From: Tatumella morbirosei
GTDB taxonomy: Bacteria; Pseudomonadota; Gammaproteobacteria; Enterobacterales; Enterobacteriaceae
NCBI RefSeq assembly: GCF_000757425.2
Contig: NZ_JPKR02000004.1
Location: 124,001-188,000 of the forward strand
Direction: 5' to 3'
DNA length: 64,000 nucleotides
A program made the translations under genes and the position numbers. Below are positions 1,056-14,157 of the stretch, one piece after another. Each line of letters starts with the position of its first letter. Position 1 is the stretch's first letter. The notes under the pieces were generated by a model, which was given only the letters and a program-made list of their open reading frames with translations, did not search any database and had not been told where the DNA came from.

Positions 1056-2327
1056 TTATTCCCCCAGCAGAGTCAGAGCCCGGGAGAAAAAGTCCTCTTC
1101 ACCGAAGTTACCGGATTTAAGCGCCAGTCCCAGTGGGCCTTGCTGATCACTTGCCAGTAAGGCCGGTACACCGGTGCTCAGTTCTGCGCCAATAACCACC
1201 GAACGGATGCCAAGCCCGGTGACAACCGCCCCCGATGTTTCACCTCCGCCAACCACCAGACGCCTGACTCCAGCCCCCGTCAGCAAGGGAGCCAGCCCTG
1301 CAAAGAATTGTTCGATGGCCTGAGAAACCTCTTCACGTCCATACTGCTGCTGTAACTCTCTGACCCGGGCGGCATCACCGGAGGTATAAATCAGCGGTAA
1401 CTGCTGCTGATGGTCCGCCACAAACTGCAACAACTCATCATAGCCGGCTTCGCCACGGATAATTTGTTCCACATCCAGTGGCAGCACAGCATAACGCTGA
1501 CGGTGATATTCAATTTGTCGTAACGTCATCCGTGAACAGCTGCCGACCAGAATGGCGCCCTGGCCCTGTACGGAAAAGGATTCTGGTTTTTCACCGCAGG
1601 CTTCCCCCCGGGAAATAAAGTTATGGGGTAGCCCACGGGCTATCGCTGACCCACCGGTCAGCAGCGGAGCATCATGGCAGGCTTTGGCAATCGACAATAG
1701 ATCGTCATCACTGATGGCATCCACCAGAACCAGACATTTTTGTTGCTCAGCCTGCTGCTGTAACAGGGTTCGTATTGTTTCGCTGCCTTGCTGTACCTGT
1801 TGCCAGTGGATAAAACCTTGCGGCAGCGTTGACTGGCTGGCCAGCACTCGTCGCAGATCGGCGTCGGTCATCGGGGTCAGAGGATGGTTTTCCATCCCCG
1901 ACTCGTTCAGCAACTGATCGTTGACAAACAGATGCCCCTGATACAAGGTCCGCTTCATGGCTGGGAATGACGGGCAAACCACCACGCCCCGCGCCGATAA
2001 TTTTTCTGCCAGTGCTTCAGCGACCGGCCCGATGTTGCCCTGGTCGGTAGAGTCAAAGGTAGAACAGTACTTAAAGACAATCTGTCGGCAGCCTTGTGCC
2101 AGCAACCAGTCACAGGCCAGCAATGATTGTTCAATGGCCTGATCGACAGGCCAGGAACGGCTTTTCAGAGCGATAACGCCGGCACCGATGGCATTTTCAG
2201 CAGGGGCGTCGGGTACTCCCATATACAATGCGGTTTTCAGGCCACCTTCTTCCGGTAACCCACCAGCCAGTGTGACACCAATATCACTGGCCCCGGTGAA
2301 ATCATCTGCTATCACACCTATTAACAT
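1056..2327 (-). CDS. otnK: 3-oxo-tetronate kinase family protein (DUF1537, OtnK type)
   Basis: This 423-residue protein belongs to the four-carbon acid sugar kinase family. In known pathways OtnK phosphorylates 3-oxo-tetronate at O4 with ATP, in the cytoplasm. The N-terminal IADDFTGASD motif (about residues 5-14) and the C-terminal GGGETSGAV motif (about residue 370) are the sugar-binding and ATP-binding signatures. STFDSTDQGNIGPV near residue 95 is typical of the OtnK branch. The frame is open 49 codons further upstream, but the start at 2327 is preferred: it begins the conserved MLIGVIADD segment, has a GGAG about six bases upstream, and overlaps the preceding gene by only seven bases. It is the last gene of the DeoR-led operon. 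Confidence 0.8.
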   Translation of the reverse strand: MLIGVIADDFTGASDIGVTLAGGLPEEGGLKTALYMGVPDAPAENAIGAGVIALKSRSWPVDQAIEQSLLACDWLLAQGCRQIVFKYCSTFDSTDQGNIGPVAEALAEKLSARGVVVCPSFPAMKRTLYQGHLFVNDQLLNESGMENHPLTPMTDADLRRVLASQSTLPQGFIHWQQVQQGSETIRTLLQQQAEQQKCLVLVDAISDDDLLSIAKACHDAPLLTGGSAIARGLPHNFISRGEACGEKPESFSVQGQGAILVGSCSRMTLRQIEYHRQRYAVLPLDVEQIIRGEAGYDELLQFVADHQQQLPLIYTSGDAARVRELQQQYGREEVSQAIEQFFAGLAPLLTGAGVRRLVVGGGETSGAVVTGLGIRSVVIGAELSTGVPALLASDQQGPLGLALKSGNFGEEDFFSRALTLLGE

Positions 2328-2998
2328 GAGTCGCTCCGTGTGTCCCGGGCCAGCCGGTGTTTCATTTTCAAAACAGCGGACTGTGGTGCCGCCAGTATGG
2401 GTAAAGCGCTCGCCGCCTGAACGGTCGCCAGTGCGCCGGATGTCGAAAAGTGGGCCAGCATTATTGCCTGACAATCTGCCAGTTGTGCTGCATATTCAGC
2501 GACCAGCGCATGGTGACGCGGGGCATCCCCGGCCCGTAACGCTTCTATGGCGCCGGGGACACAGAGGGTTTTCAGGGTAGCCTGGCTCTGCCGCTGTCTG
2601 GTCAGTGCATAGAATTCGCTTTCCATACCACTGACGGCCGGGGCAAAGGTGGCCAGCATACCAATCCGGGTGCCGTGCTCCAGTGCAGCTTCAAACATCG
2701 CCTCATTCGGTTTCAGTACCGGAATAGTGAACATCTCGTCCAGCGCCTCCAGGGGTTCACCAAAAGCAAAACAGGTGGCCAGAATACCGTCAGCACCCAT
2801 GTCACGGGCATAGGTACCAAAGCGGATAAAACGGCTTCTCAGTTCAGGCGTCATTTGAGAGGATTTTGCCCGCTCCAGCGATAATCCCTCATCCAGCAAA
2901 TGAATGGCTGTGGCTTCCGGCCATAAAGCCTGCATTGCCTCCGTGATCGGTTGCATAGCCACCGGCGTGGCATGCAGCAGAACTATTGATTTCATCAC
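2321..2998 (-). CDS. Asp/Glu racemase-like protein lacking the second catalytic cysteine
   Basis: The protein has 225 residues and the fold signature of the aspartate/glutamate/hydantoin racemase family: an LLHATP start, a GADGILATCF segment with Cys near residue 75, and a C-terminal P-I-LAAP segment. Two-base racemases of this family carry a second cysteine in a G-C-A/T-x motif near residue 180. Here that site reads IMLAHFSTSG, with no cysteine. Either it is not a classical racemase or it uses one-base chemistry, as some isomerase and decarboxylase relatives do. It overlaps the kinase start by seven bases, which suggests translational coupling in the operon. The substrate cannot be read from the sequence. 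Confidence 0.7.
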   Translation of the reverse strand: MMKSIVLLHATPVAMQPITEAMQALWPEATAIHLLDEGLSLERAKSSQMTPELRSRFIRFGTYARDMGADGILATCFAFGEPLEALDEMFTIPVLKPNEAMFEAALEHGTRIGMLATFAPAVSGMESEFYALTRQRQSQATLKTLCVPGAIEALRAGDAPRHHALVAEYAAQLADCQAIMLAHFSTSGALATVQAASALPILAAPQSAVLKMKHRLARDTRSDSC

Positions 2999-3019
2999 AG
3001 TGTTCTCCCGGGTCAGGGA

Positions 3020-3718
3020 TTAATTACGCAGTTCCAGACCAAATTTCTGATATTCATCGGCGGTTTCCGGCGCAGTCACAATATCGATCAATTCTGCTGC
3101 CTGTTGTTTACGTTCAGAACTGGCAAACTGCGCGATAGAAAATGCGGTGATCTTCTGTAATTCATCCGGCAGATAACCAATGATTTCGACGCCGGGAACC
3201 ACCAGCAGCTCGCTAATTTGCTGAATGGCTAAATCTGCTTCCCCGGTGATCAGTTTTTCCGCAGTAAAACCTTCCGGGATAGGGCAGGCTTTGGCGTCAA
3301 TCTCCTGTTCGATCCCGAGTTTTTTTAATACGGTTTTGAAATGAATACCACTGGCTCCGCCGACGGAGTAGCAGATGGAGCGTCCTTCACGCAGGGTTTT
3401 CACCAGCTGTTCTGTCCCGGAAACATCGACATGTGGGGCACCTTGTTTCACCGCAAATCCGATCCTTGAGATCACCAGCGGTTTTCGGGTTGCCGGATCG
3501 ACAATCCCCTGAGCCACCAGTTGATCCATTGCCGGATCCGTGACAATTACCACGTCGCATTGCTGACCGTTTTCTATGTTTTTCATCAGTACTGTGGTCG
3601 GGGTCCAGTGAATATCAATCTCTCCGGACTGGCGACGATAGCGGTCGAGCAATGTCGCATCAAAAGGTGAACGAACGACCAATGCACTGTGCAGTGATAA
3701 AGGACCTGAATGACTCAT
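3020..3718 (-). CDS. ModA-like periplasmic-binding-fold protein without signal peptide
   Basis: The protein has 232 residues and resembles the substrate-binding domain of the molybdate/sulfate-type binding proteins: a VVRSPFDATLL start, CDVVIVTDPAMDQL, ISRIGFAVKQG, and GEADLAIQQISELL followed by PGVEIIGYLPDELQ. The N-terminus has no basic-hydrophobic signal sequence, so the protein is predicted to stay in the cytoplasm, and no ABC permease or ATPase genes are present. It sits between the AEC permease and the racemase-like gene in the same operon. It may bind a pathway metabolite or act as a ligand sensor; this is inference only. It is not a transcription factor, as no helix-turn-helix is visible. 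Confidence 0.6.
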   Translation of the reverse strand: MSHSGPLSLHSALVVRSPFDATLLDRYRRQSGEIDIHWTPTTVLMKNIENGQQCDVVIVTDPAMDQLVAQGIVDPATRKPLVISRIGFAVKQGAPHVDVSGTEQLVKTLREGRSICYSVGGASGIHFKTVLKKLGIEQEIDAKACPIPEGFTAEKLITGEADLAIQQISELLVVPGVEIIGYLPDELQKITAFSIAQFASSERKQQAAELIDIVTAPETADEYQKFGLELRN

Positions 3719-3769
3719 AGTTAACTCCTGAATTCGTGGGGGTGGGCCGCCATAGAGCAGCCCGTTTGG

Positions 3770-4684
3770 CTACATGGCCAGCCAGATGGTAACGGGGACA
3801 GTAATCACTGCCAGTATGGTACTGACCATGATGGCAAAGGCTGCTTTTTCCGGATGCACATCCAGCGCTGAAGCTACTGCGGCAATATTGGCCGGAAGTG
3901 GGTTACAGGCCAGCATAACCATGACCACATATTCATAAGTCTGAAGATGAAACTGGCGGAAAATCAGGATAATCACCAGAGCATACAGCCCTTGTTTCCA
4001 GAGGATGGAGTAGAAGGCGAATTTCCAGTCCGGTACCAGTTTGTCAAATCTCGCCAGTGACATCCCGATAATCATCATCCCCAGGGTAGAGTATCCCCCC
4101 ACAAAACCGTTCACTCCGCTTTTAATAAACTCAGGTAATTCAAAGTGAAAATATTTTAGAATCAATGCCAGGATCGCTGCATGCAGGGTAGGCATTTTGG
4201 CAACACGGATCAGACTGGTTTTCACTGAATAGAGGCCACGGGCGGTAATATAATAGGCCGCGGTAAATTCATAGATACTGGAAGCGACCTTGGCAAACAC
4301 CACAATACTGATTGCCGCAGCGCCATCCGGAGTACCTCCCAGCAGCCCTATAGCCAGTGGCAGAACAAAATAGCCAACATTACCCTGTCCGCCGGCAGCG
4401 CCAAACAGGTTAGCACGGTTGTCTTTCCATAAAAAACGCCCGACGAATAACGCCAGAAAGGCAGCAATACAGGAGATGACATAAAATACTACCGAATACA
4501 TGGCATATCCGACGCCTGCCGGAGAATTCAGTATTAATACAAAACAGACAATCGGTGAAAAAATATAAATTAATAAGTTGGCAATGTCTTTGGAATTTAT
4601 TTTAAATTTCCTGGACGCATACCAGCCTATCATCGACACAGCGATTAAATATGCCACGCGTGGCATAATTTCATAAGCGGTCAT
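3770..4684 (-). CDS. AEC-family inner-membrane transporter
   Basis: The 304-residue protein has about ten hydrophobic membrane segments arranged in two halves, as in auxin-efflux-carrier (AEC) family permeases of bacteria. These commonly carry malonate, malate or other small carboxylates. Family-like features include the GGQGNVGYFVLPLAIGL segment with the internal NVGY kink motif, and the second-half ACNPLPANI motif. It lies in the DeoR-led operon with sugar-acid metabolism genes, so the likely cargo is the acid substrate of the pathway or a product. The direction of transport cannot be told from sequence. Confidence 0.75.
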   Translation of the reverse strand: MTAYEIMPRVAYLIAVSMIGWYASRKFKINSKDIANLLIYIFSPIVCFVLILNSPAGVGYAMYSVVFYVISCIAAFLALFVGRFLWKDNRANLFGAAGGQGNVGYFVLPLAIGLLGGTPDGAAAISIVVFAKVASSIYEFTAAYYITARGLYSVKTSLIRVAKMPTLHAAILALILKYFHFELPEFIKSGVNGFVGGYSTLGMMIIGMSLARFDKLVPDWKFAFYSILWKQGLYALVIILIFRQFHLQTYEYVVMVMLACNPLPANIAAVASALDVHPEKAAFAIMVSTILAVITVPVTIWLAM

Positions 4685-4729
4685 TTTATTTTTACCTGTG
4701 TATAGTGAGTAGGGTAATTTAAACAGTGA

Positions 4730-5368
4730 TTACCATCGGCATTTAAATGTTGTTTCCAAATCATTAATGGCCTGCTCAGAAAGCAGTGCTGCCTTGCGAC
4801 CCGTTTCTATCCATAGTTTTGCTGTTTCTTCTAATTCTTCGAGAATATAACTTGCCTGTGAAACACTGTTTCCCCAGACAACCGGACCCAGCCGTTCCAG
4901 CATGACACCTTTGACCTTATCCGCCAGTCCGGCCACTATTTCTGCCACTTCCGGCGCACCTGGTCGTTGATATTCAATTAACGGGATTCTGCCGACTTTC
5001 ATGACCTGATAAGGCGTGATGGGAGGCAGAATAGCATCAGGGCTCCAGACACCCAGTAAGGTTAGTAAGACCAAAGAGGTGGAATGGGTATGCAGAACAC
5101 TGCTGGCAGCTGAATTCTGTTTATAGATACCGCGATGCAACAACAGTGTTTTGGAGGGTTTATTCCCACTAATCCATTCACCGGCCAGGCTGACTTTAGC
5201 AATATCATTCGGGTCAAGAGTCCCCAGACAGGCGTCGGTGGGGGTAATCAGCCAGCCATCATCCAGACAGGCACTGATATTACCCGATGAACCGACAATA
5301 TATCCTCTGTTATATAAGCTTGCCCCGGTCAGACATATCTCTTCGCGTATTTTATTTTCGTCTTTCAT
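4730..5368 (-). CDS. Class II aldolase/adducin protein, OtnC-like, with substituted catalytic residues
   Basis: The 212-residue protein is similar over its length to OtnC (3-oxo-tetronate-4-phosphate decarboxylase): a GSSGNIS phosphate loop at residues 26-32, TPTDACLGTLDP at 42-53, two zinc ligands in HTH at 93-95, and EELEETAKL near the end. Two canonical positions differ. The catalytic Glu of the family PSKE motif is Thr (PSKT, residues 71-74), and the third zinc His of the NHGPVV motif is Leu (ERLGPVV). The chemistry may therefore be changed or lost. Its start overlaps the end of the DeoR regulator by 17 bases, which indicates co-transcription. Confidence 0.75.
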   Translation of the reverse strand: MKDENKIREEICLTGASLYNRGYIVGSSGNISACLDDGWLITPTDACLGTLDPNDIAKVSLAGEWISGNKPSKTLLLHRGIYKQNSAASSVLHTHSTSLVLLTLLGVWSPDAILPPITPYQVMKVGRIPLIEYQRPGAPEVAEIVAGLADKVKGVMLERLGPVVWGNSVSQASYILEELEETAKLWIETGRKAALLSEQAINDLETTFKCRW

Positions 5369-6164
5369 AATAACTTCCTTCCTGAAATATATCGATAAAG
5401 GTCACTTTGGGTGACGTGACCTCAAGCAAGCTCTGCTTACATTCACCGGAAATAGAGTCGGTAATTATTTCATCCATTGAGGATAACGGGCAGACGGTAT
5501 AAAAACCGTATTTTCCATATTTACTGCTATCCGATACCAGAATATTTCTATTTGATACAGAAATAACTGTCTGCTTAACCACTGCTTTACCTTCATATGG
5601 TGTCGAAATTCCGTGGACTAAATCCCAGGAACTGGCACTCAGAAAGGCTAAATCAATATTCAGCGCTTTGATAAAATTGGCTGCGCTTAATCCGACGCAG
5701 GACAAATTACGTTTATCTACCCGCCCCCCCACGTGATAGAGATCGATAGCGGGGTTAGACATCAGCAACTGACTGATAGAAAAATCATTGGTGACTACCG
5801 TCAGATGAAAATTAGCCGGAATACAACAGGCTATTTCAAACGTGGTGGTTCCCGCATCCAGATAGATAATGGTGCCTTCAGAGATGCGCTGCATAGCCCG
5901 TTTACCCAGCTCTTTTTTCAGCTTATGGTTCAGGTATGATTTTTCCTGATAGGGCAGTTCCTGATGCAGTAGTTCGCTGAGTCTGATACCGCCATTGACC
6001 CGTTGAACTTTTCCTTCCCGTTCCAGAATCTGTACGTCCCGGCGGATGGTCATGTGTGACACGTTCATCAGGGACGCCAGGGCGTCATAAAGCGCAATCT
6101 GGTTTTCATGGACATAGCGATAGATAAAGTCCCGACGTTCATTAGCCGTTAATGCAATCGCCAT
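5352..6164 (-). CDS. DeoR-family transcriptional regulator of the acid-sugar operon
   Basis: This 270-residue protein has an N-terminal DeoR helix-turn-helix (about residues 8-60, including VSHMTIRRD and REGKVQRVNGG). A C-terminal sugar-phosphate sensor domain of the DeoR/GntR type follows (DAGTTTFEIA, VTNDFSI, VGGRVDKRN). It is the promoter-proximal gene of the operon, overlapping the aldolase start by 17 bases. It therefore probably represses its own operon and is released by a phosphorylated intermediate. A CRP-like site and a TTCACA-N6-TGTGAA inverted repeat lie upstream, at 6221-6236 and 6342-6359. Confidence 0.8.
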   Translation of the reverse strand: MAIALTANERRDFIYRYVHENQIALYDALASLMNVSHMTIRRDVQILEREGKVQRVNGGIRLSELLHQELPYQEKSYLNHKLKKELGKRAMQRISEGTIIYLDAGTTTFEIACCIPANFHLTVVTNDFSISQLLMSNPAIDLYHVGGRVDKRNLSCVGLSAANFIKALNIDLAFLSASSWDLVHGISTPYEGKAVVKQTVISVSNRNILVSDSSKYGKYGFYTVCPLSSMDEIITDSISGECKQSLLEVTSPKVTFIDIFQEGSYYERRK

Positions 6165-6220
6165 TTGCCACCACTCTTATCACTGTCTGTTCTGTGTCTG
6201 TGTTAATGAATGTAGTTTAC

Positions 6221-6236
6221 GGTGATCAATTTCACA
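6221..6236 (-). promoter_or_regulatory. Candidate CRP binding site ahead of the DeoR operon
   Basis: The sequence GGTGA-N6-TCACA matches nine of ten core positions of the CRP consensus TGTGA-N6-TCACA. It is about 57 bases upstream of the DeoR start codon. Catabolite control would suit a sugar-acid operon. No footprint information is available and the transcription start is not known. Confidence 0.45.
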
Positions 6237-6341
6237 TTAAAAGTTGCGTAATCACAGATTTTACACCGGGTAAAATTAAGGTTTTTTATTTAACTATATG
6301 AAAATTAATTATTTTAAATCTTAATAACCTGATTTTATTTT

Positions 6342-6359
6342 TCACACTGGCATGTGAAA
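6342..6359. promoter_or_regulatory. Perfect inverted repeat TTCACA-N6-TGTGAA, possible operator
   Basis: A perfect 6+6 inverted repeat with a six-base spacer lies in AT-rich DNA about 180 bases upstream of the DeoR gene. The half-sites are in the opposite order from a CRP site, so it is not a standard CRP box. It may be an operator for the local DeoR regulator. The rest of the 6165-6521 gap holds AT-rich sequence and the rpoD terminator. Confidence 0.3.
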
Positions 6360-6447
6360 TATCAGAGTGACGGGGAGAGGGTGAAAATTTCCGTGGCTTG
6401 GGTGATTAAACAAAAGGTATCCGCGATGATAAGAGCACAGCACAGTT

Positions 6448-6478
6448 AAAAAAAACCTCACCAGAATGATGAGGTTTT
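6448..6478 (-). terminator. Intrinsic terminator of the rpsU-dnaG-rpoD operon
   Basis: Read on the minus strand, AAAACCTCA pairs with TGAGGTTTT around a nine-base loop and is followed by a run of T. It begins 44 bases after the rpoD stop codon, as expected for the operon end. Confidence 0.8.
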
Positions 6479-6521
6479 CGCTAAGCAGAGATGTCGGAAA
6501 AATTATCCGACAGGCTGTGGA

Positions 6522-8366
6522 TTAGTCATCCAGGAAGCTTCGCAGAACTTCCGAGCGGCTTGGGTGACGTAATTTACGCAGTGCTTTGGCTTCAATCTGA
6601 CGAATACGCTCACGGGTAACATCGAACTGTTTACCGACTTCTTCCAGAGTATGGTCAGTATTCATATCAATACCAAAACGCATCCGCAGGACTTTAGCTT
6701 CACGGGCAGTCAGACCAGCCAGTACGTCATGCGTTGCAGAACGCAGGCTTTCAGACGTTGCTGAATCCAGCGGCAGCTCCAGCGTGGTGTCTTCGATAAA
6801 ATCACCCAGATGTGAATCTTCGTCATCGCCAATCGGTGTTTCCATCGAAATAGGCTCTTTCGCGATTTTCAGCACCTTACGAATTTTATCTTCAGGCATC
6901 AGCATCCGCTCTGCCAGTTCTTCCGGTGAAGGTTCACGACCCATTTCCTGCAACATCTGACGTGAAATACGGTTCAGTTTGTTGATGGTTTCGATCATGT
7001 GTACCGGAATACGAATGGTTCTGGCCTGGTCTGCAATTGAACGGGTAATGGCCTGACGAATCCACCATGTCGCATAAGTTGAGAACTTGTAACCACGACG
7101 GTATTCAAACTTATCAACCGCTTTCATCAGACCAATGTTACCTTCCTGAATCAGATCCAGGAACTGCAGGCCACGGTTGGTGTATTTTTTAGCAATTGAA
7201 ATCACCAGACGCAGGTTAGCTTCTACCATCTCTTTTTTCGCACGGCGGGCTTTCGCTTCACCGATAGACATACGACGGTTGATGTCCTTCACCTGCTCGA
7301 TGGTCAGACCGGTTTCTTCCTCAACCTGAGCCAGTTTGTGAAGGCCACGTTCCACATCATCTTCGACTTCCAGCAGCTTTTCAGACCATGGTTTTTTCAT
7401 TGCCAGAGCAGCTTTAAACCAGGTGCCATTGGTTTCGTTGCCGGTAAACAGTGTGATGAAGTTTTTCTTCGGCATTTTGCACACTTCAACACACAGTTTC
7501 ATGATGGCGCGTTCCTGAGCACGGACACGATCCATCATCTGGCGCATATTGTTGACCAGATAATCAAACTGTTTTGGCACTAAACGGAACTGTTTAAAGA
7601 CTTCAGACAGATTCTGAATTTCGGCAATCGCATCAGCATGGCTGCGGCTTTTGCTTTTGATGACGGTACGGGTGACTTCGTACTGGGCACGTAATTCGCC
7701 GAATTTTTCACGTGCCAGCTCAGGATCGATAGAGTTATCATCTTCTGAGTTATCATCATCGCTGTCTTCATCTTCGTCGTCGTCATCGTTACGGTCTTCT
7801 TCCGATAACTCTGACCCGATATTGGTCGCTGTCGGTGCCAGATCTTCCTCAGCATTCGGATCGACAAAACCAGTAATAATATCGGAAAGCCGTGCTTCTC
7901 CGGCTTCGACTCTGTCGTATTGTTCCAGCAGATAAGTGATTGCTTCCGGATATTCCGCGACTGAGCATTGAACCTGGTTGATACCATCTTCAATACGTTT
8001 AGCAATATCAATTTCGCCTTCGCGGGTAAGCAGTTCTACGGTACCCATTTCACGCATATACATGCGGACAGGGTCAGTGGTCCGGCCAATTTCAGACTCT
8101 ACGCTGGAAAGTACCTGCGCGGCCGCTTCTGCTGCATCTTCATCAGTATCGGAACTGTTTTCATTCAGCATCAGATCATCGGCATCAGGGGCTTCTTCTA
8201 CCACCTGAATACCCATGTCGTTGATCATCTGAATAATGTCTTCAATCTGATCGGAGTCGACAATATCTTCCGGCAGATGGTCATTGACCTCAGCATAGGT
8301 CAGATAGCCTTGCTCCTTACCACGGGTGACAAGTAGCTTCAGCTGTGACTGCGGGTTTTGCTCCAT
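6522..8366 (-). CDS. rpoD: RNA polymerase primary sigma factor sigma-70
   Basis: The 614-residue protein is nearly identical in layout to E. coli sigma-70 (613 residues). Region 1.1 occupies the first 80 or so residues. A non-conserved insert with a long acidic stretch lies near residues 190-215. The region 2 core is near 380-450 ([14 protein letters not shown], core binding and -10 recognition). Region 4.2, near 570-600 ([27 protein letters not shown]), recognises the -35 element. It is the last gene of the macromolecular synthesis operon after rpsU and dnaG, with a terminator 44 bases downstream. Confidence 0.98.
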
Positions 8367-8525
8367 AAGACGGTATCCACACTTCTGTTAATGAGATCGG
8401 TGTTTGTCGGGGTTAACCGGCAAATAACAGTAAAGGCGTTTCATTGGCTGCGGCCTTCATCGCAGCAATGGGCATCTGCCCTGAGTAATCGGCAATTAAG
8501 CCGCGAGTAATCTTTTTGTCATCAT

Positions 8526-8552
8526 TCAGGCTTCAGTATAGAAGAAGCCTGA
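8526..8552 (-). other. Hairpin with a TATACT -10-like loop in the dnaG-rpoD spacer
   Basis: TCAGGCTTC pairs perfectly with GAAGCCTGA around a nine-base loop. On the minus strand the loop region contains TATACT, a -10-like hexamer, with a weak TTGTAC about 19 bases upstream. It may be an rpoD-proximal promoter or a processing hairpin; E. coli is known to have extra promoters for rpoD within the operon. No T-run follows, so it is not an obvious terminator. The rest of the 269-base spacer shows nothing clear. Confidence 0.3.
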
Positions 8553-8635
8553 CAACTCTGTACAAACTGGTGGTTTTTACAGCAAAATTTACATTCAGTC
8601 ACAGGTCGACGTGTCAGCAAACGCCAACCGACAAT

Positions 8636-10382
8636 CTATTTTTTGGCCAGTGCTGTCAGCAACGATTGCAATTCAAGCCGTTCGTCACTGTTCAGCCCAT
8701 GAGTGCGATCACGGGCAATCAGCCATTCGAGTCGCTGCTCCAACGCTGTGTTATAAATACTGGTCAGTGAGTCACTAAACACCGCTTCCACTTCATCATC
8801 TACTATCATGTGGTTCCAGACAGCCAGAGTTTCAAGGGACTGTGCCGTTTTAGTATCACGATAACTTTCCAGTAACTGGGCAGTAGTTAAGCCTGGCTGC
8901 TCATTACAGCGTTGTACCAGTTCAGCGAACAGTGGCAGTCCGGCAATACCCGTCTCTTTTAACCCTTCAAGCGACGGGACTTTAGCCGCCAGTGCCGGGT
9001 TCTGTAACAGCAACGCGACCAGAATCCGCATGGTGGTTTTTTTTCATCACTGGCGAAGCGTTCACCGGTTTGTTTTCGGCCTTTGCCGGTAACAATTTTT
9101 CCAACTGACGGTCGTCCAGAATACCCAGTTTGTTGCCCAGTACCTGACGTATATAAATCCGCAGCGTTTCTCCCGGGATCTGACTAATCAGTGGCAGAGC
9201 CAGGGTACTTAAACGTGCTTTTCCGTCACGGGTACTCAGGTCTACCTGAGGCAGTAAATTGTCGAACAGGAAGTCTGACAGCGGTACAGCCTGTTCCATT
9301 CGTTGCTCAAACGCCTGTTTGCCTTCTTTACGTACCAGCGTATCCGGATCTTCGCCATCCGGCAGAAACATAAAACGCAGCTGGCGGCCATCGGTAATGT
9401 AAGGCAGGGCAGTTTCCAGTGCACGCCATGCGGCGTCACGTCCCGCCCGGTCACCGTCATAACAGCAAATCACGGTATCGGTATTTCTGAACAGTAGCTG
9501 TATATGTTCACTGGTGGTTGAAGTCCCCAGAGAGGCTACTGCATAATCGATGCCAAACTGCGCCAGAGCCACCACATCCATATAGCCTTCAACCACTAAT
9601 AACCTGGCGGGCTGGTTATGGATTTGTGTGACTTCATAGAGCCCGTATAGTTGCCGGCCTTTATGGAAAATTGAGGTCTCCGGTGAGTTAAGGTATTTGG
9701 GCGTATCATTCCCCAGTACCCGACCACCAAAACCAATCACTCTTCCTCGTTTATCACGAATTGGGAACATGACCCGGTCACGAAAACGGTCATAACTGCG
9801 GCCATTGTCATTAGTGACCAGCATCCCGGCTTCTGTCAGAGAGTGTTTATCTTCCTGATGTTTTCCAAAACGCTTTAAGGCGTTGTCCCATCCTGGTGGG
9901 GCGAACCCTATCGAAAAATGTTCGATCACCTGCTGACTCAGTCCGCGACTTTGCAGATAGTGCCGGGCAGGTTCTGCCTGAGGTTGTGATAAAGAAGACT
10001 GGTAAAACTGATTCAGACCGTCCATCAGCTGGTAAAGGCTTTGTCGCTGATGCCGCTCCATGGGGGTGTCACCGCTACCGCTTTCGTAGGGAACTTCCAG
10101 TCCATTCATGGTGGCCAGTTCTTCGATGGTTTCGACAAACTCCAGACGGTCAAAATTCATCAGAAAATCAATAGCATTACCATGAGCACCACAGCCAAAA
10201 CAGTGGTAAAACTGTTTGTCACCGTTGACGGTAAAAGACGGGGTTTTTTCGTTATGGAAAGGGCAACAGGCGTGATAATTCTTGCCTTGCTTTTTCAGCT
10301 TCACGCGGGCATCAATAAGATCCACGATGTCTGTGCGGGCAAGCAAGTCATTGATAAATATACGCGGTATTTTCCCAGCCAT
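8636..10382 (-). CDS. dnaG: DNA primase, interrupted by a one-base insertion in an A8 tract
   Basis: DnaG makes RNA primers at the replication fork and binds the DnaB helicase. The first frame (8982-10382) carries the CHC2 zinc ribbon (CPFH and CFGCG motifs, about residues 40-64) and the Toprim core (VVEGYMDVV near 265, YDGDRAG near 308). The helicase-binding C-terminal domain is in another frame (to 8636). The switch is at an eight-A tract on the minus strand (9037-9044). Removing one A gives KKTTMRIL, as in other DnaG proteins, and a 581-residue protein, the same length as E. coli DnaG. DnaG is essential, so this is a sequencing error or is bypassed, for example by transcriptional slippage. 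Confidence 0.9.
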
Positions 10383-10407
10383 AGACTCCGGTTCTTTAAC
10401 TCATAAA

Positions 10408-10445
10408 CGACAACAAGCCGCGCCTCCTTTCGGAAAGCACGGCCT
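10408..10445 (-). terminator. Possible partial terminator in the rpsU-dnaG spacer
   Basis: On the minus strand GCCGTGC and a GCGCGGC-like arm flank TTTCCGAAAGGAG, giving an imperfect GC-rich hairpin in the 116-base spacer. E. coli has a leaky terminator at this place, which lowers dnaG expression relative to rpsU. Support here is the position plus imperfect pairing only. Confidence 0.35.
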
Positions 10446-10498
10446 TTCACTTTACTCAGTCTGCGTGTAACACGCATGGGAGCAGGCTCCCGGACAAA

Positions 10499-10765
<267 letters not shown>

Positions 10766-10886
10766 TTATTTCAAAATGGTGCAGTATTTTACTCCAGCGT
10801 GGGCTGGCTTGTAAAGCACCATGAACAATTTCAAACCAACAAAGCGCTTCGCAGCACTGTGGTTGCCGGTTTTTTTCAGACCGCGA

Positions 10887-10892
10887 AGTATA
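10887..10892 (-). promoter_or_regulatory. Candidate -10 element of the rpsU promoter
   Basis: On the minus strand a TATACT hexamer lies about 170 bases upstream of rpsU. A T-rich stretch (TTTTTAC) about 16-17 bases further upstream could serve as the -35. The match to the sigma-70 -10 consensus is five of six. Confidence 0.45.
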
Positions 10893-10960
10893 GCCTATTC
10901 TTTGGCCGGTAAAAAATCTTTTTAATGAAATCGTGCAGCATAGGCCAGAATTGTTAGCTG

Positions 10961-10969
10961 TGGTACACT
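10961..10969 (+). promoter_or_regulatory. Extended -10 promoter element for tsaD
   Basis: TGGTACACT forms an extended -10 (TGnTACACT) 28 bases before the tsaD start codon, in the divergent rpsU/tsaD spacer. A TTGTTA lies only four bases before it, too close to act as a -35, so the extended -10 is the main support. Confidence 0.45.
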
Positions 10970-10996
10970 CCTGCGGCGAAATCAGAGGTGAGTGTG

Positions 10997-12016
10997 ATGC
11001 GAGTTTTGGGTATTGAAACGTCTTGCGATGAAACCGGAATTGCAATTTATGACGACGAATCCGGTCTGTTGGCTAATCAGCTATATAGCCAGGTGAGTTT
11101 ACACGCTGATTATGGCGGTGTGGTGCCGGAACTGGCATCCCGCGACCATGTCCGTAAAACGGTACCCCTCATTCAGGCGGCGATGGCTGAGGCAGGGCTG
11201 ACAGCTACAGATATTGATGCGGTGGCTTACACTGCCGGTCCCGGGCTGGTCGGGGCATTAATGGTCGGAGCTACCGTCGGTCGCTCTCTGGCTTTTGCCT
11301 GGCAGGTGCCGGCGATTGCCGTCCACCATATGGAAGGCCATCTGTTGGCTCCAATGCTGGAAGATAACCCACCTGAATTTCCTTTTGTTGCCTTGCTGGT
11401 CTCAGGGGGACATACCCAGCTTATCAGTGTCACCGGGATTGGTGAGTATGAACTGCTCGGCGAGTCGATTGATGATGCCGCCGGAGAAGCCTTTGATAAG
11501 ACAGCTAAATTACTGGGGCTGGATTATCCCGGAGGGCCACTGCTGTCGAAAATGGCAGCGCAGGGGACGGCAGGACGTTTTACCTTTCCACGGCCAATGA
11601 CCGACAGGCCAGGCCTGGATTTCAGTTTTTCGGGCCTGAAGACCTTTGCCGCGAATACCATCCGTAACCATGACGATGATGCCGGGACCAAAGCTGATAT
11701 TGCGAGGGCATTTGAAGATGCGGTGGTGGATACCCTGATGATAAAATGTAAGCGCGCACTTCAGCAGACCGGGTTTAAAAAACTGGTGATTGCCGGAGGT
11801 GTCAGTGCTAACAAAACACTACGAGAAAGAATGGCAGAGATGATGCAGCAACGCGGCGGTGAAGTGTTTTATGCAAGGCCAGCGTTCTGTACCGATAATG
11901 GTGCCATGATAGCCTATGCAGGGATGGTTCGTCTGAAAGGGGGAACCCACAGTGATCTGGGGATTACAGTGCGACCACGCTGGCCACTGGCGGAATTGCC
12001 GCCGTTAGTGCCCTGA
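10997..12016 (+). CDS. tsaD: tRNA N6-threonylcarbamoyladenosine transferase TsaD
   Basis: The 339-residue ASKHA-fold enzyme transfers the threonylcarbamoyl group to A37 of ANN-decoding tRNAs, with TsaB, TsaE and Tsa[11 protein letters not shown] opens the protein. HHMEGHL carries the metal-binding histidines near 111-115. LVSGGHTQL and [11 protein letters not shown] mark the nucleotide site. The ATG at 10997 is preferred over the GTG at 10988 because GAGGTG lies seven bases before it and E. coli TsaD starts at the same residue. It is divergent from rpsU, as in E. coli. Confidence 0.97.
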
Positions 12017-12045
12017 TCTGGGAAATTTCAGGAGCGGCCGGAGGT

Positions 12046-12669
12046 TTAGTGTTTGCCGCTATCTGTAGGCTGCGATTTGGTTTTGCGTTTCCACAGGCGG
12101 GGCTCCATACCCCGCCACAGACGCTGAATATTGTCGTGATGACGTAGCAGAATCAGGCAGGACAGCATAGAGACAGGAAAGGTAAACTGTGGCTTAAACC
12201 ACCAGACATAAAAGGGTGCAATTAATGCACTGATAATCGCTCCCAGCGAAGAGTAACCACTGAGTAGTACTGTCAGAATCCATGTGCCCATCATCAGCCC
12301 GGTCAGGTCCCAGCCAATGGGGGCAATCGCACCCAGCGCAGTCGCCACACCTTTACCGCCGCGAAAGCCAAAAAATACCGGATAGATATGGCCGAGACAG
12401 GCCGCTATTGCCGTCAAACCCAGGAAGAAGGGAGAAATATGTAACTCCCATGCCAGCCAGACCGGCAACATCCCTTTTATGACATCAAATAATAGCACCG
12501 CAACTGCGGCCAGTTTACCACCCACCCGTAAAATGTTGGTCGCACCGGGGTTGCCAGAACCCAGGGTACGGGGATCAGGGTATCCGCAGAGTTTGCACAA
12601 CAGAATTGCTCCGGAAACGGAACCGCAAAGATACGCAAAAAGGATCATACCTGCAGCGATTACTGTCAT
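12046..12669 (-). CDS. plsY: Glycerol-3-phosphate acyltransferase PlsY
   Basis: The roughly 207-residue inner-membrane protein has about five hydrophobic segments. It transfers acyl groups from acyl-phosphate to glycerol-3-phosphate, the first step of phospholipid synthesis. Its three conserved cytoplasmic motifs are visible: SGNPGATN near residue 38, [18 protein letters not shown] near 95-112, and RHHDNIQRL near 180. The start at 12669 matches E. coli PlsY better than the ATG four codons upstream. It is convergent with tsaD and divergent from folB, as in E. coli. Confidence 0.95.
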
Positions 12670-12772
12670 AATACTTCCCATACCTGTCCGTTGTTTTGGT
12701 TGCTGTCTGGATAATACGCATAAAGCAACGGAAGTGGTATCTGATCACCATAAAAACACAGAGAGTATCACG

Positions 12773-13132
12773 ATGGATCTTGTCTTTATCGAACAGCTGA
12801 CCGTATTTACCACCATTGGCGCCTATGACTGGGAACAGACTATTCAGCAAAAATTGTTACTGGATATAGAAATGGCATGGGATAACCGCAAAGCCGCGAA
12901 GAGTGATGATGTGGCAGATTGTCTAAGTTATGCGGATGTTTCTGAGGCAGTGTTACAGCATTTACAGGGACAGCGCTTTGCCCTGGTTGAGCGGGTAGCA
13001 GAAGAAGTAGCGGAATTACTTATGCAGCGTTTTGACTTACCCGGAGTACGAATTAAAGTCAGTAAGCCCGGCGCTGTCGCGCAAGCGAGCCAGGTGGGAG
13101 TACGCATTGAGCGGGGAATTATTCCTAAATAA
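12773..13132 (+). CDS. folB: Dihydroneopterin aldolase
   Basis: The 119-residue protein matches FolB over its length: MDLVFIEQLTV, a GAYDWE motif with the family Glu, LSYADVSEAV, and KPGAVAQASQVGVRIER with the C-terminal catalytic Lys. It converts dihydroneopterin to 6-hydroxymethyl-dihydropterin plus glycolaldehyde in folate synthesis. The open frame continues 98 codons upstream across plsY, but that part is antisense to plsY. The ATG at 12773 is the family start. Confidence 0.95.
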   Translation: MDLVFIEQLTVFTTIGAYDWEQTIQQKLLLDIEMAWDNRKAAKSDDVADCLSYADVSEAVLQHLQGQRFALVERVAEEVAELLMQRFDLPGVRIKVSKPGAVAQASQVGVRIERGIIPK

Positions 13133-13338
13133 CCGGAAACAGATAGTAAATAATTGCCATCAAACTGAAACCCAATCAGAGTATTGACTGTCATATGCCG
13201 TGGAACTCATTGTCGGTACAATGATTTAACGGTTCTGGCATAGTTCAGAAAAGTTCACATAACTGCTTATTTTAAGCCATCAGTAAAAATGGCAGCCAGG
13301 TGTTGTGTTGATTGGGGTGAATTGGAGAGGATTTTTTG

Positions 13339-14157
13339 ATGGCAGATATGCACCACCTGTTTGTTGCAGCAATTTTGGGCATTGTTGAAGGGTTAACGGA
13401 ATTCTTACCCGTTTCATCCACAGGCCACATGATTATTGTCGGCCATTTGCTGGGGTTTGAGGATGAAACCGCAGAAACCTTTGAAGTTGTCATCCAGTTG
13501 GGGTCGATACTGGCTGTCGTTGTGATGTTCTGGCGCAGGTTGTTTGGGTTGATAGGTATTCATTTTGGGAAGGTTCCCCATGAAGGTACTGGCCAGGGGC
13601 ATCTGACGCTTATCCATATTTTACTGGGTATGATTCCGGCTGTCGTTCTCGGCCTAATTTTGCATGACCGGATCAAAACACTGTTTACCCCGATTAATGT
13701 GATGTATGCGCTGGTCGCCGGGGGGATTTTGTTGTTGCTGGCAGAATACTTTAAACCCAAACAGCCAAAATCGGTGGGTCTTGATGATATTACCTACCGC
13801 CAGGCTTTTATGATTGGTTGCTTTCAGTGTCTGGCTCTGTGGCCTGGTTTTTCACGTTCAGGCGCAACTATCTCCGGTGGAATGCTGATGGGGATAAGTC
13901 GCTATGCGGCTTCTGAATTTTCGTTTCTGCTGGCGGTGCCGATGATGATGGGCGCGACAGCACTGGATTTATATAAAAGCCTCAGCTTCCTGACTGTCAG
14001 CGATATTCCGATGTTTGGTATTGGTTTTATTATGGCATTTATCGTGGCACTGATTGCGATTAAGACCTTCCTGGAACTGATTAAACGAATTTCGTTTGTC
14101 CCGTTCGCTATCTACCGTTTTATCCTCGCGGTGGTGGTCTATATGATTTTTGCCTGA
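13339..14157 (+). CDS. uppP: Undecaprenyl-diphosphate phosphatase
   Basis: The 272-residue inner-membrane enzyme (BacA/UppP) recycles the lipid carrier of cell-wall synthesis. Visible signatures are [17 protein letters not shown] near residues 16-32 and the second-half [13 protein letters not shown] near 170-182, which carry the catalytic Glu, Ser and Arg. About seven to eight hydrophobic segments are present. The ATG at 13339 follows a GGAGAGG eight bases upstream. A TTG just before it is not needed. It ends at a strong terminator. Confidence 0.96.

Follow-up and report, generated by a model that had tools for sequence, protein, structure and literature searches.

In FucA, as described in an excerpt of PMC11841055, a zinc held by three His residues serves to stabilise the enediolate, the C3 hydrogen is dealt with by Glu73, and phosphate is bound by Asn29, Thr43, Gly44, Ser71 and Ser72. 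The same excerpt presents a variation on this site in pyruvic oxime dioxygenase, which has the FucA fold and has lost the Glu73 position, with a Glu kept in that space and all three His kept. OtnC belongs to the LtnD-OtnI-OtnK-OtnC route, and deletion of the genes of this route abolishes the use of L-threonate, as stated in an excerpt of PMC12540250 that cites Zhang et al. 2016.

The window, the whole stretch of 64,000 nucleotides of Tatumella morbirosei DNA analysed here, contains an OtnC-like gene in a minus-strand run that proceeds from a DeoR regulator through the OtnC-like protein, an AEC transporter, a substrate-binding-protein-like gene and an Asp/Glu racemase-like gene to OtnK, as listed below. 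T/L denotes OtnC-family proteins with Thr and Leu at sites 74 and 160, and E/H those with Glu and His at the same sites.

5352–6164, minus strand: DeoR-family regulator upstream, YgbI-like (227.7 bits, below that model's cut-off of 400)
4730–5368, minus strand, stop codon included: T/L-type member of the OtnC family with 212 aa (Aldolase_II, 4.2e-41; NF043034, 5.2e-79)
3770–4684, minus strand: AEC-type membrane transporter (PF03547, 6.4e-12)
3020–3718, minus strand: substrate-binding-protein-like (SBP_bac_11, 6.2e-31)
2321–2998, minus strand: Asp/Glu racemase-family protein (1.2e-12)
1056–2327, minus strand: OtnK, 3-oxo-tetronate kinase (DUF1537; NF043035, 512.8 bits, cut-off 350)

The start of OtnK was set at an internal ATG, the longer ORF opening at TTG, and the structure nearest to its model is 5dmh (Z 50.9). 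The OtnC-like gene is an uninterrupted ORF of 212 residues with an ATG start, in agreement with a preliminary description of this DNA that had called the frame intact, and it is under strong purifying selection, with dN/dS values (simple Nei-Gojobori) of 0.025 for the comparison with the closest congener (protein 98% identical), 0.105 against a 76% relative and 0.039 in a third comparison, in which dS was saturated. Its product scored 264.8 bits against NF043034, the NCBIfam model of OtnC (cut-off 250), and its membership of PF00596, the class II aldolase/adducin superfamily, was evident from both the domain match (4.2e-41) and the fold. The AlphaFold model (mean pLDDT 93.4) found its best structural match in YgbL 6vop (Z 30.1, rmsd 1.6, 205 aligned residues), with FucA ranking behind YgbL at a Z of about 26.

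The likeness to OtnC/YgbL of E. coli and Klebsiella (6vop and 6voq, Z 30.1 and 29.8; NF043034) extends to length, to 42–43% identity and to the shared motifs TPY, YxRPG and EELEETA. Unlike these proteins, the window protein carries Thr74 for Glu, Leu160 for the third His, Asp45 for Gly or Asn, HTH for HLH and Arg159 for Asn, and has gained Trp165. With FucA it shares the fold (Z 26.0), the Asn and Ser of the phosphate loop and the HxH motif, but equivalents of Glu73 and His155 are missing and the identity is about 26%. Pyruvic oxime dioxygenase (8il8) has the same fold (Z 22.6) and has also lost the Glu73 position, but it differs in keeping all three His and in having Glu164 take the place of Glu73, as given in the excerpt of PMC11841055. 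The E. coli YgbL chain in 6vop reads PSAA at the family PSKE motif and looks like an active-site mutant rather than the native enzyme.

The codons of the residues in question are located as follows.

5147–5149, minus strand: codon of Thr74, at the FucA Glu73 position (from alignments)
4889–4891, minus strand: codon of Leu160, at the position of the third zinc His, FucA His155 (from alignments)
5234–5236, minus strand: codon of Asp45, at FucA Gly44 in the phosphate loop; clade-invariant, candidate compensating carboxylate
5084–5092, minus strand: codons of His93-Thr94-His95, in which both retained zinc His flank a Thr typical of the clade
4892–4897, minus strand: codons of Glu158-Arg159, of which Arg is nearly invariant and Glu is not

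PSKT, HTH and ERLGPVV occupy residues 71–74, 93–95 and 158–164 of the window protein. Alignments to 6voq and 6vop, and of a T/L relative to FucA, placed Thr74 at the Glu73 site and Leu160 at the His155 site, confirming that the changes from PSKE to PSKT and from NHGPVV to ERLGPVV, noticed in the preliminary description, are real. That description was also right that the first two zinc His (HTH) are kept, as His93 and His95 are retained and only the third zinc-His site, now Leu160, is altered. The phosphate loop, which it had taken as kept, is so in part: N30, T44 and S72 are present, but FucA Gly44 has become an Asp45 that is fixed in the clade. Replacement of His155 by another conserved His, a case it had also raised, was rejected, given that the only His residues fixed in T/L proteins are 78, 93 and 95, all common to E/H; the new invariant residue is Asp45 instead. 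A search of the literature by titles and abstract openings found nothing on these substitutions.

The substitutions are shared far beyond Tatumella. From 311 loci, 247 different aligned stretches were obtained, comprising 175 T74/L160, 71 E/H and one A/L sequence, totals that are not frequencies because the loci were sought by the window protein or the family model; no mixed E/H–T/L state occurred among the 247. All 80 relatives taken from genome_contigs (61–76% identity, with 54 further candidates of the same scan left out) have Thr and Leu at the two sites, as do all 84 matched stretches when the window gene and three same-genus genomes are included, some genes being reached twice. The gene is present in four of the six genomes of the genus, its own included, and Tatumella records are the closest named relatives of the window protein among the genome_contigs matches listed (74 and 76%). 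Other T/L records are titled Pseudomonas, Erwinia, Pantoea, Serratia, Rouxiella, Achromobacter, Collimonas, Delftia, Comamonas, Pandoraea and Gluconacetobacter, among others. The product name 'aldolase' in plasmid records stands on both types and is uninformative.

The T/L type is usual in some groups and rare in others. Besides the window, 40 places were read from a search of Enterobacterales and gave 39 E/H and a single T/L (L282), so that E/H prevails in the sampled Enterobacterales outside this genus; in an even class-wide draw, ten other genomes over the cut-off were E/H and one below it (G112) was T/L. A family search centred on G1090, in contrast, had matches in 230 of 398 genomes, and the 46 places read from it were 42 T/L and 4 E/H.

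Glu at site 74 is absent from all 176 L160-type sequences (175 Thr, one Ala) and present in all 71 canonical ones, and it marks the E/H branch rather than every sequence over the NF043034 cut-off; one divergent T/L member, L281, falls below that cut-off at 220.6 bits (cut-off 250). Further sites separate the two types: site 45 is Asp in 175/175 T/L versus Gly or Asn in 71/71 E/H, site 165 is Trp in 175/175 versus mostly small residues, site 94 is Thr in 174/175 versus Leu in 70/71, and site 159 is Arg in 174/175 versus mostly Asn (66/71). Asp45 is the sole acidic residue that is fixed in T/L and absent in E/H. In an earlier subset of 207 sequences (144 T/L and 63 E/H), N30, T44, S72, K73 and the two zinc His were invariant in 144/144 T/L sequences. 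Site 158 varies within T/L (145 Glu, 18 Asp, 11 Ala and one Ser), and because 12 of 175 sequences have Ala or Ser there, the idea that Glu158 is a new obligatory ligand was rejected. A role of Thr74 as obligatory acid is weakened by L344 (G876:C70:74200-75500), the sole sequence read with Ala74 and Leu160, in which even Thr74 is not kept.

A 62-row tree that excluded columns 74 and 158–160 and included three outgroup aldolases placed the T/L sequences on one side of a branch with 100/100 support and a single change, and thus revealed the clade with the same two substitutions that the preliminary description had proposed to look for. Four long-branch rows of other aldolases (L100, L101, L106 and L107) were removed from the tree, as T/L was not one clade with them included; L107 was also taken out of the E/H counts (64 to 63), and the counts do not include L207 and L267, the C. 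necator pBB1 copy, whose match is divided between two frames. Glu and His occupy the two sites in the three outgroup aldolases, so that the T/L state is derived; in the rooted tree the E/H sequences do not form a clade, in line with E/H as the ancestral state. Because the tree records one event, the coupling of residues is not a set of independent trials. The OtnC active site has been rebuilt throughout the T/L clade, and the window protein is no local oddity. Decay of the window gene, which had been considered less likely from the intact frame, was rejected in view of the same residues in four genomes of the genus and in 238 of the 311 loci read, together with the dN/dS of 0.025, and on the same grounds decay or a sequencing error, in favour of which nothing was found for the window gene, retains next to no probability as an explanation.

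The surroundings of the T/L genes were surveyed by tblastn at 1e-20 in the 80 loci, with flanks of at most 6 kb on either side, some of them shortened where the contig ended; the L288 stretch, retrieved to show gene context, did not contain the gene. OtnK was found at 76 loci, LtnD and OtnI at 52 each and DenD at 25, with LtnD, OtnI and OtnK together at 50 of 80; near four loci (L011, L013, L022 and L085) OtnK was not found in the fetched flanks. Family names of the neighbours were confirmed by profile on two clusters, all scores being over the cut-offs (L012: LtnD 477.5, OtnI 415.7 and T/L protein 278.2 bits; L277: LtnD 481.6, DenD 509.7 and T/L protein 307.3 bits). T/L genes occupy OtnC's place in the gene clusters. 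A search of the 79 genomes behind the 80 loci with the OtnC model at E 1e-45 gave T/L as the sole OtnC-family form in 73 of them, where a single match in a genome was taken as the known T/L gene; G787 and G801, among the 73, have two T/L members each. The remaining six (G766, G771, G784, G793, G806 and G810, with records titled Pantoea, Erwinia and Winslowiella) also hold an E/H member, and their T/L loci are of a cluster type with an alpha-hydroxyacid oxidase, outside the 50. On a Paraburkholderia sabiae plasmid (L206, 6001-6639), a T/L gene lies beside annotated eno (enolase) and tpiA (triose-phosphate isomerase), and no OtnC-pathway genes, OtnK included, were found in that stretch.

In Cupriavidus necator N-1 (G1429), a chromosomal cluster brings together LtnD, OtnK, the T/L protein, OtnI and DenD, with a GntR-type regulator and a transporter recognised by eye; no other decarboxylase candidate was seen by eye in this cluster. 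The protein at the OtnC position (L277) has the same T/L site and 64% identity to the window protein. Its neighbouring kinase, an H16_A1561 orthologue, differs by eye at 8 of 431 positions (~98% identical) from PDB 5dmh, titled DUF1537 of Ralstonia eutropha H16, H16_A1561. Judging from strain N-1, the H16 cluster very probably has a T/L-type OtnC, and a 2016 study reportedly assayed the H16 OtnC itself. Genome G1429 was recognised as that of N-1 by a 100% match over 1501 bases to the plasmid pBB1 of this strain. Two family matches were obtained in the N-1 genome, the chromosomal T/L gene and presumably the pBB1 copy. The divergent T/L copy on plasmid pBB1 (L207, 6001-6593), whose match is split over two reading frames, represents either a disrupted gene or an error in the sequence of that record.

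Unlike the N-1 cluster, the window operon contains none of LtnD, OtnI and DenD, so that of OtnK, LtnD and OtnI only OtnK is present; with its racemase-like and SBP-like genes, its substrate may differ. The racemase-family protein (2321–2998) may stand in for the isomerase step. Relatives of this protein occur at 12 of the 80 loci, 11 of them without LtnD and OtnI and one (L030) with OtnI, and outside the 80, L285 has a relative together with OtnI. SBP-like genes occur at 16 of the 80 T/L loci. The N-terminus of the SBP_bac_11-like protein at 3020–3718 (MSHSGPLSLHSALVV...) has no signal peptide evident by eye, and this protein may be a cytosolic enzyme or sensor rather than a transport protein.

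The same genome contains a second acid-sugar cluster (L309, G000:C6:741000-755000, 2622-14001), in which lactonase-, MFS-, LacI-, alpha-hydroxyacid oxidase-, racemase-, OtnK-, cytochrome c- and GMC dehydrogenase-like genes were recognised, mostly by eye. Its alpha-hydroxyacid oxidase is 79% to the Erwinia one, but the aldolase that lies between transporter and lactonase in the Erwinia/Pantoea clusters (L018 and L210) is absent from L309. The genome has no family member other than the window gene (a single match at 1e-30), so that this gene may serve both clusters. Three other aldolase-like places in the genome have 25–28% identity, and two OtnI/Hyi-like proteins at 40% are found elsewhere in it.

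To decarboxylate a beta-keto acid, an enzyme requires an electron sink and a proton donor but no base that pulls a proton from carbon, and this is less demanding than retro-aldol cleavage. The role of Glu73 could therefore be dropped or moved. The T/L protein would probably convert the OtnK product of the same operon to dihydroxyacetone phosphate and CO2. It was speculated that His93 and His95 still hold a metal and that Asp45, which is fixed in the clade, acts as third ligand or acid in preference to Glu158, which some members have lost, while Arg159 and Lys73 may stabilise the enediolate or the carboxylate. On the pattern of conservation, Asp45 is the best candidate for compensation of the lost Glu and third His. 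We tentatively propose that, for the same reaction within one family, the centre of three-His zinc and Glu could have been replaced once by two His and a fixed Asp, with Arg and Trp, giving either a two-His-one-carboxylate metal site or a decarboxylation that uses no tightly bound metal; this is somewhat less probable than otherwise.

Since the whole T/L branch sits in clusters where the normal enzyme belongs, the T/L protein is probably a working OtnC-type decarboxylase with a differently built active site, acting on the OtnK product; both the catalysis and its substrate are what we infer. The usual decarboxylation is favoured by a score over the NF043034 equivalog cut-off, by OtnK at 76 of 80 loci with the LtnD, OtnI and OtnK set at 50, by the 73 of 79 genomes in which no E/H member was found at E 1e-45, by the C. 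necator N-1 cluster, by the dN/dS of 0.025 and by the match of the model to YgbL. However, Glu and the three His are the accepted set in FucA, so that their joint loss could mean a different reaction, and gene context is association rather than chemistry. It is possible, if rather unlikely, that the T/L clade catalyses another reaction, with a related OtnK product as substrate; an acid-sugar phosphate that is branched or differs in configuration might, for instance, be decarboxylated or undergo retro-aldol cleavage. The additional fixed differences at Asp45, Thr94, Arg159 and Trp165 are in keeping with such a change, as are the operons of the window type, which lack LtnD and OtnI and have racemase-like and SBP-like genes, and elsewhere an alpha-hydroxyacid oxidase; the six genomes with both types could also mean a division of labour. 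This is countered by the co-occurrence of LtnD, OtnI and OtnK at 50 of the 80 T/L loci, with no E/H member found in those genomes.

The preliminary description had left the choice between a new activity or metal geometry and a non-catalytic, adducin-like protein. The usual decarboxylation is more likely than a new activity, which is nonetheless possible. The metal site or the mechanism may be changed, with no new invariant His in place of His155 but with the new invariant Asp45. The non-catalytic alternative is disfavoured by the T/L protein being the sole type in 73 of 79 genomes and by its company of LtnD, OtnI and OtnK at the 50 loci and in N-1. A binding or regulatory protein would accord with the Glu and one zinc His both being lost, but it appears very improbable in view of the invariance of N30, T44, S72, K73 and the two zinc His in 144/144 T/L sequences and of the C. 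necator N-1 cluster, where no other decarboxylase candidate was seen by eye.

The known OtnC function is the most likely one for the T/L protein. If the T/L clade is active, this reaction does not depend on the residues that define class II aldolases and decarboxylases, and annotation based on catalytic residues would miscall many enzymes of Pseudomonas and Burkholderiales, Achromobacter included, as dead. The E/H and T/L types, roughly 40% identical and apparently catalysing the same reaction, form a natural pair and would offer a clean test case for the rebuilding of a metal-dependent active site.
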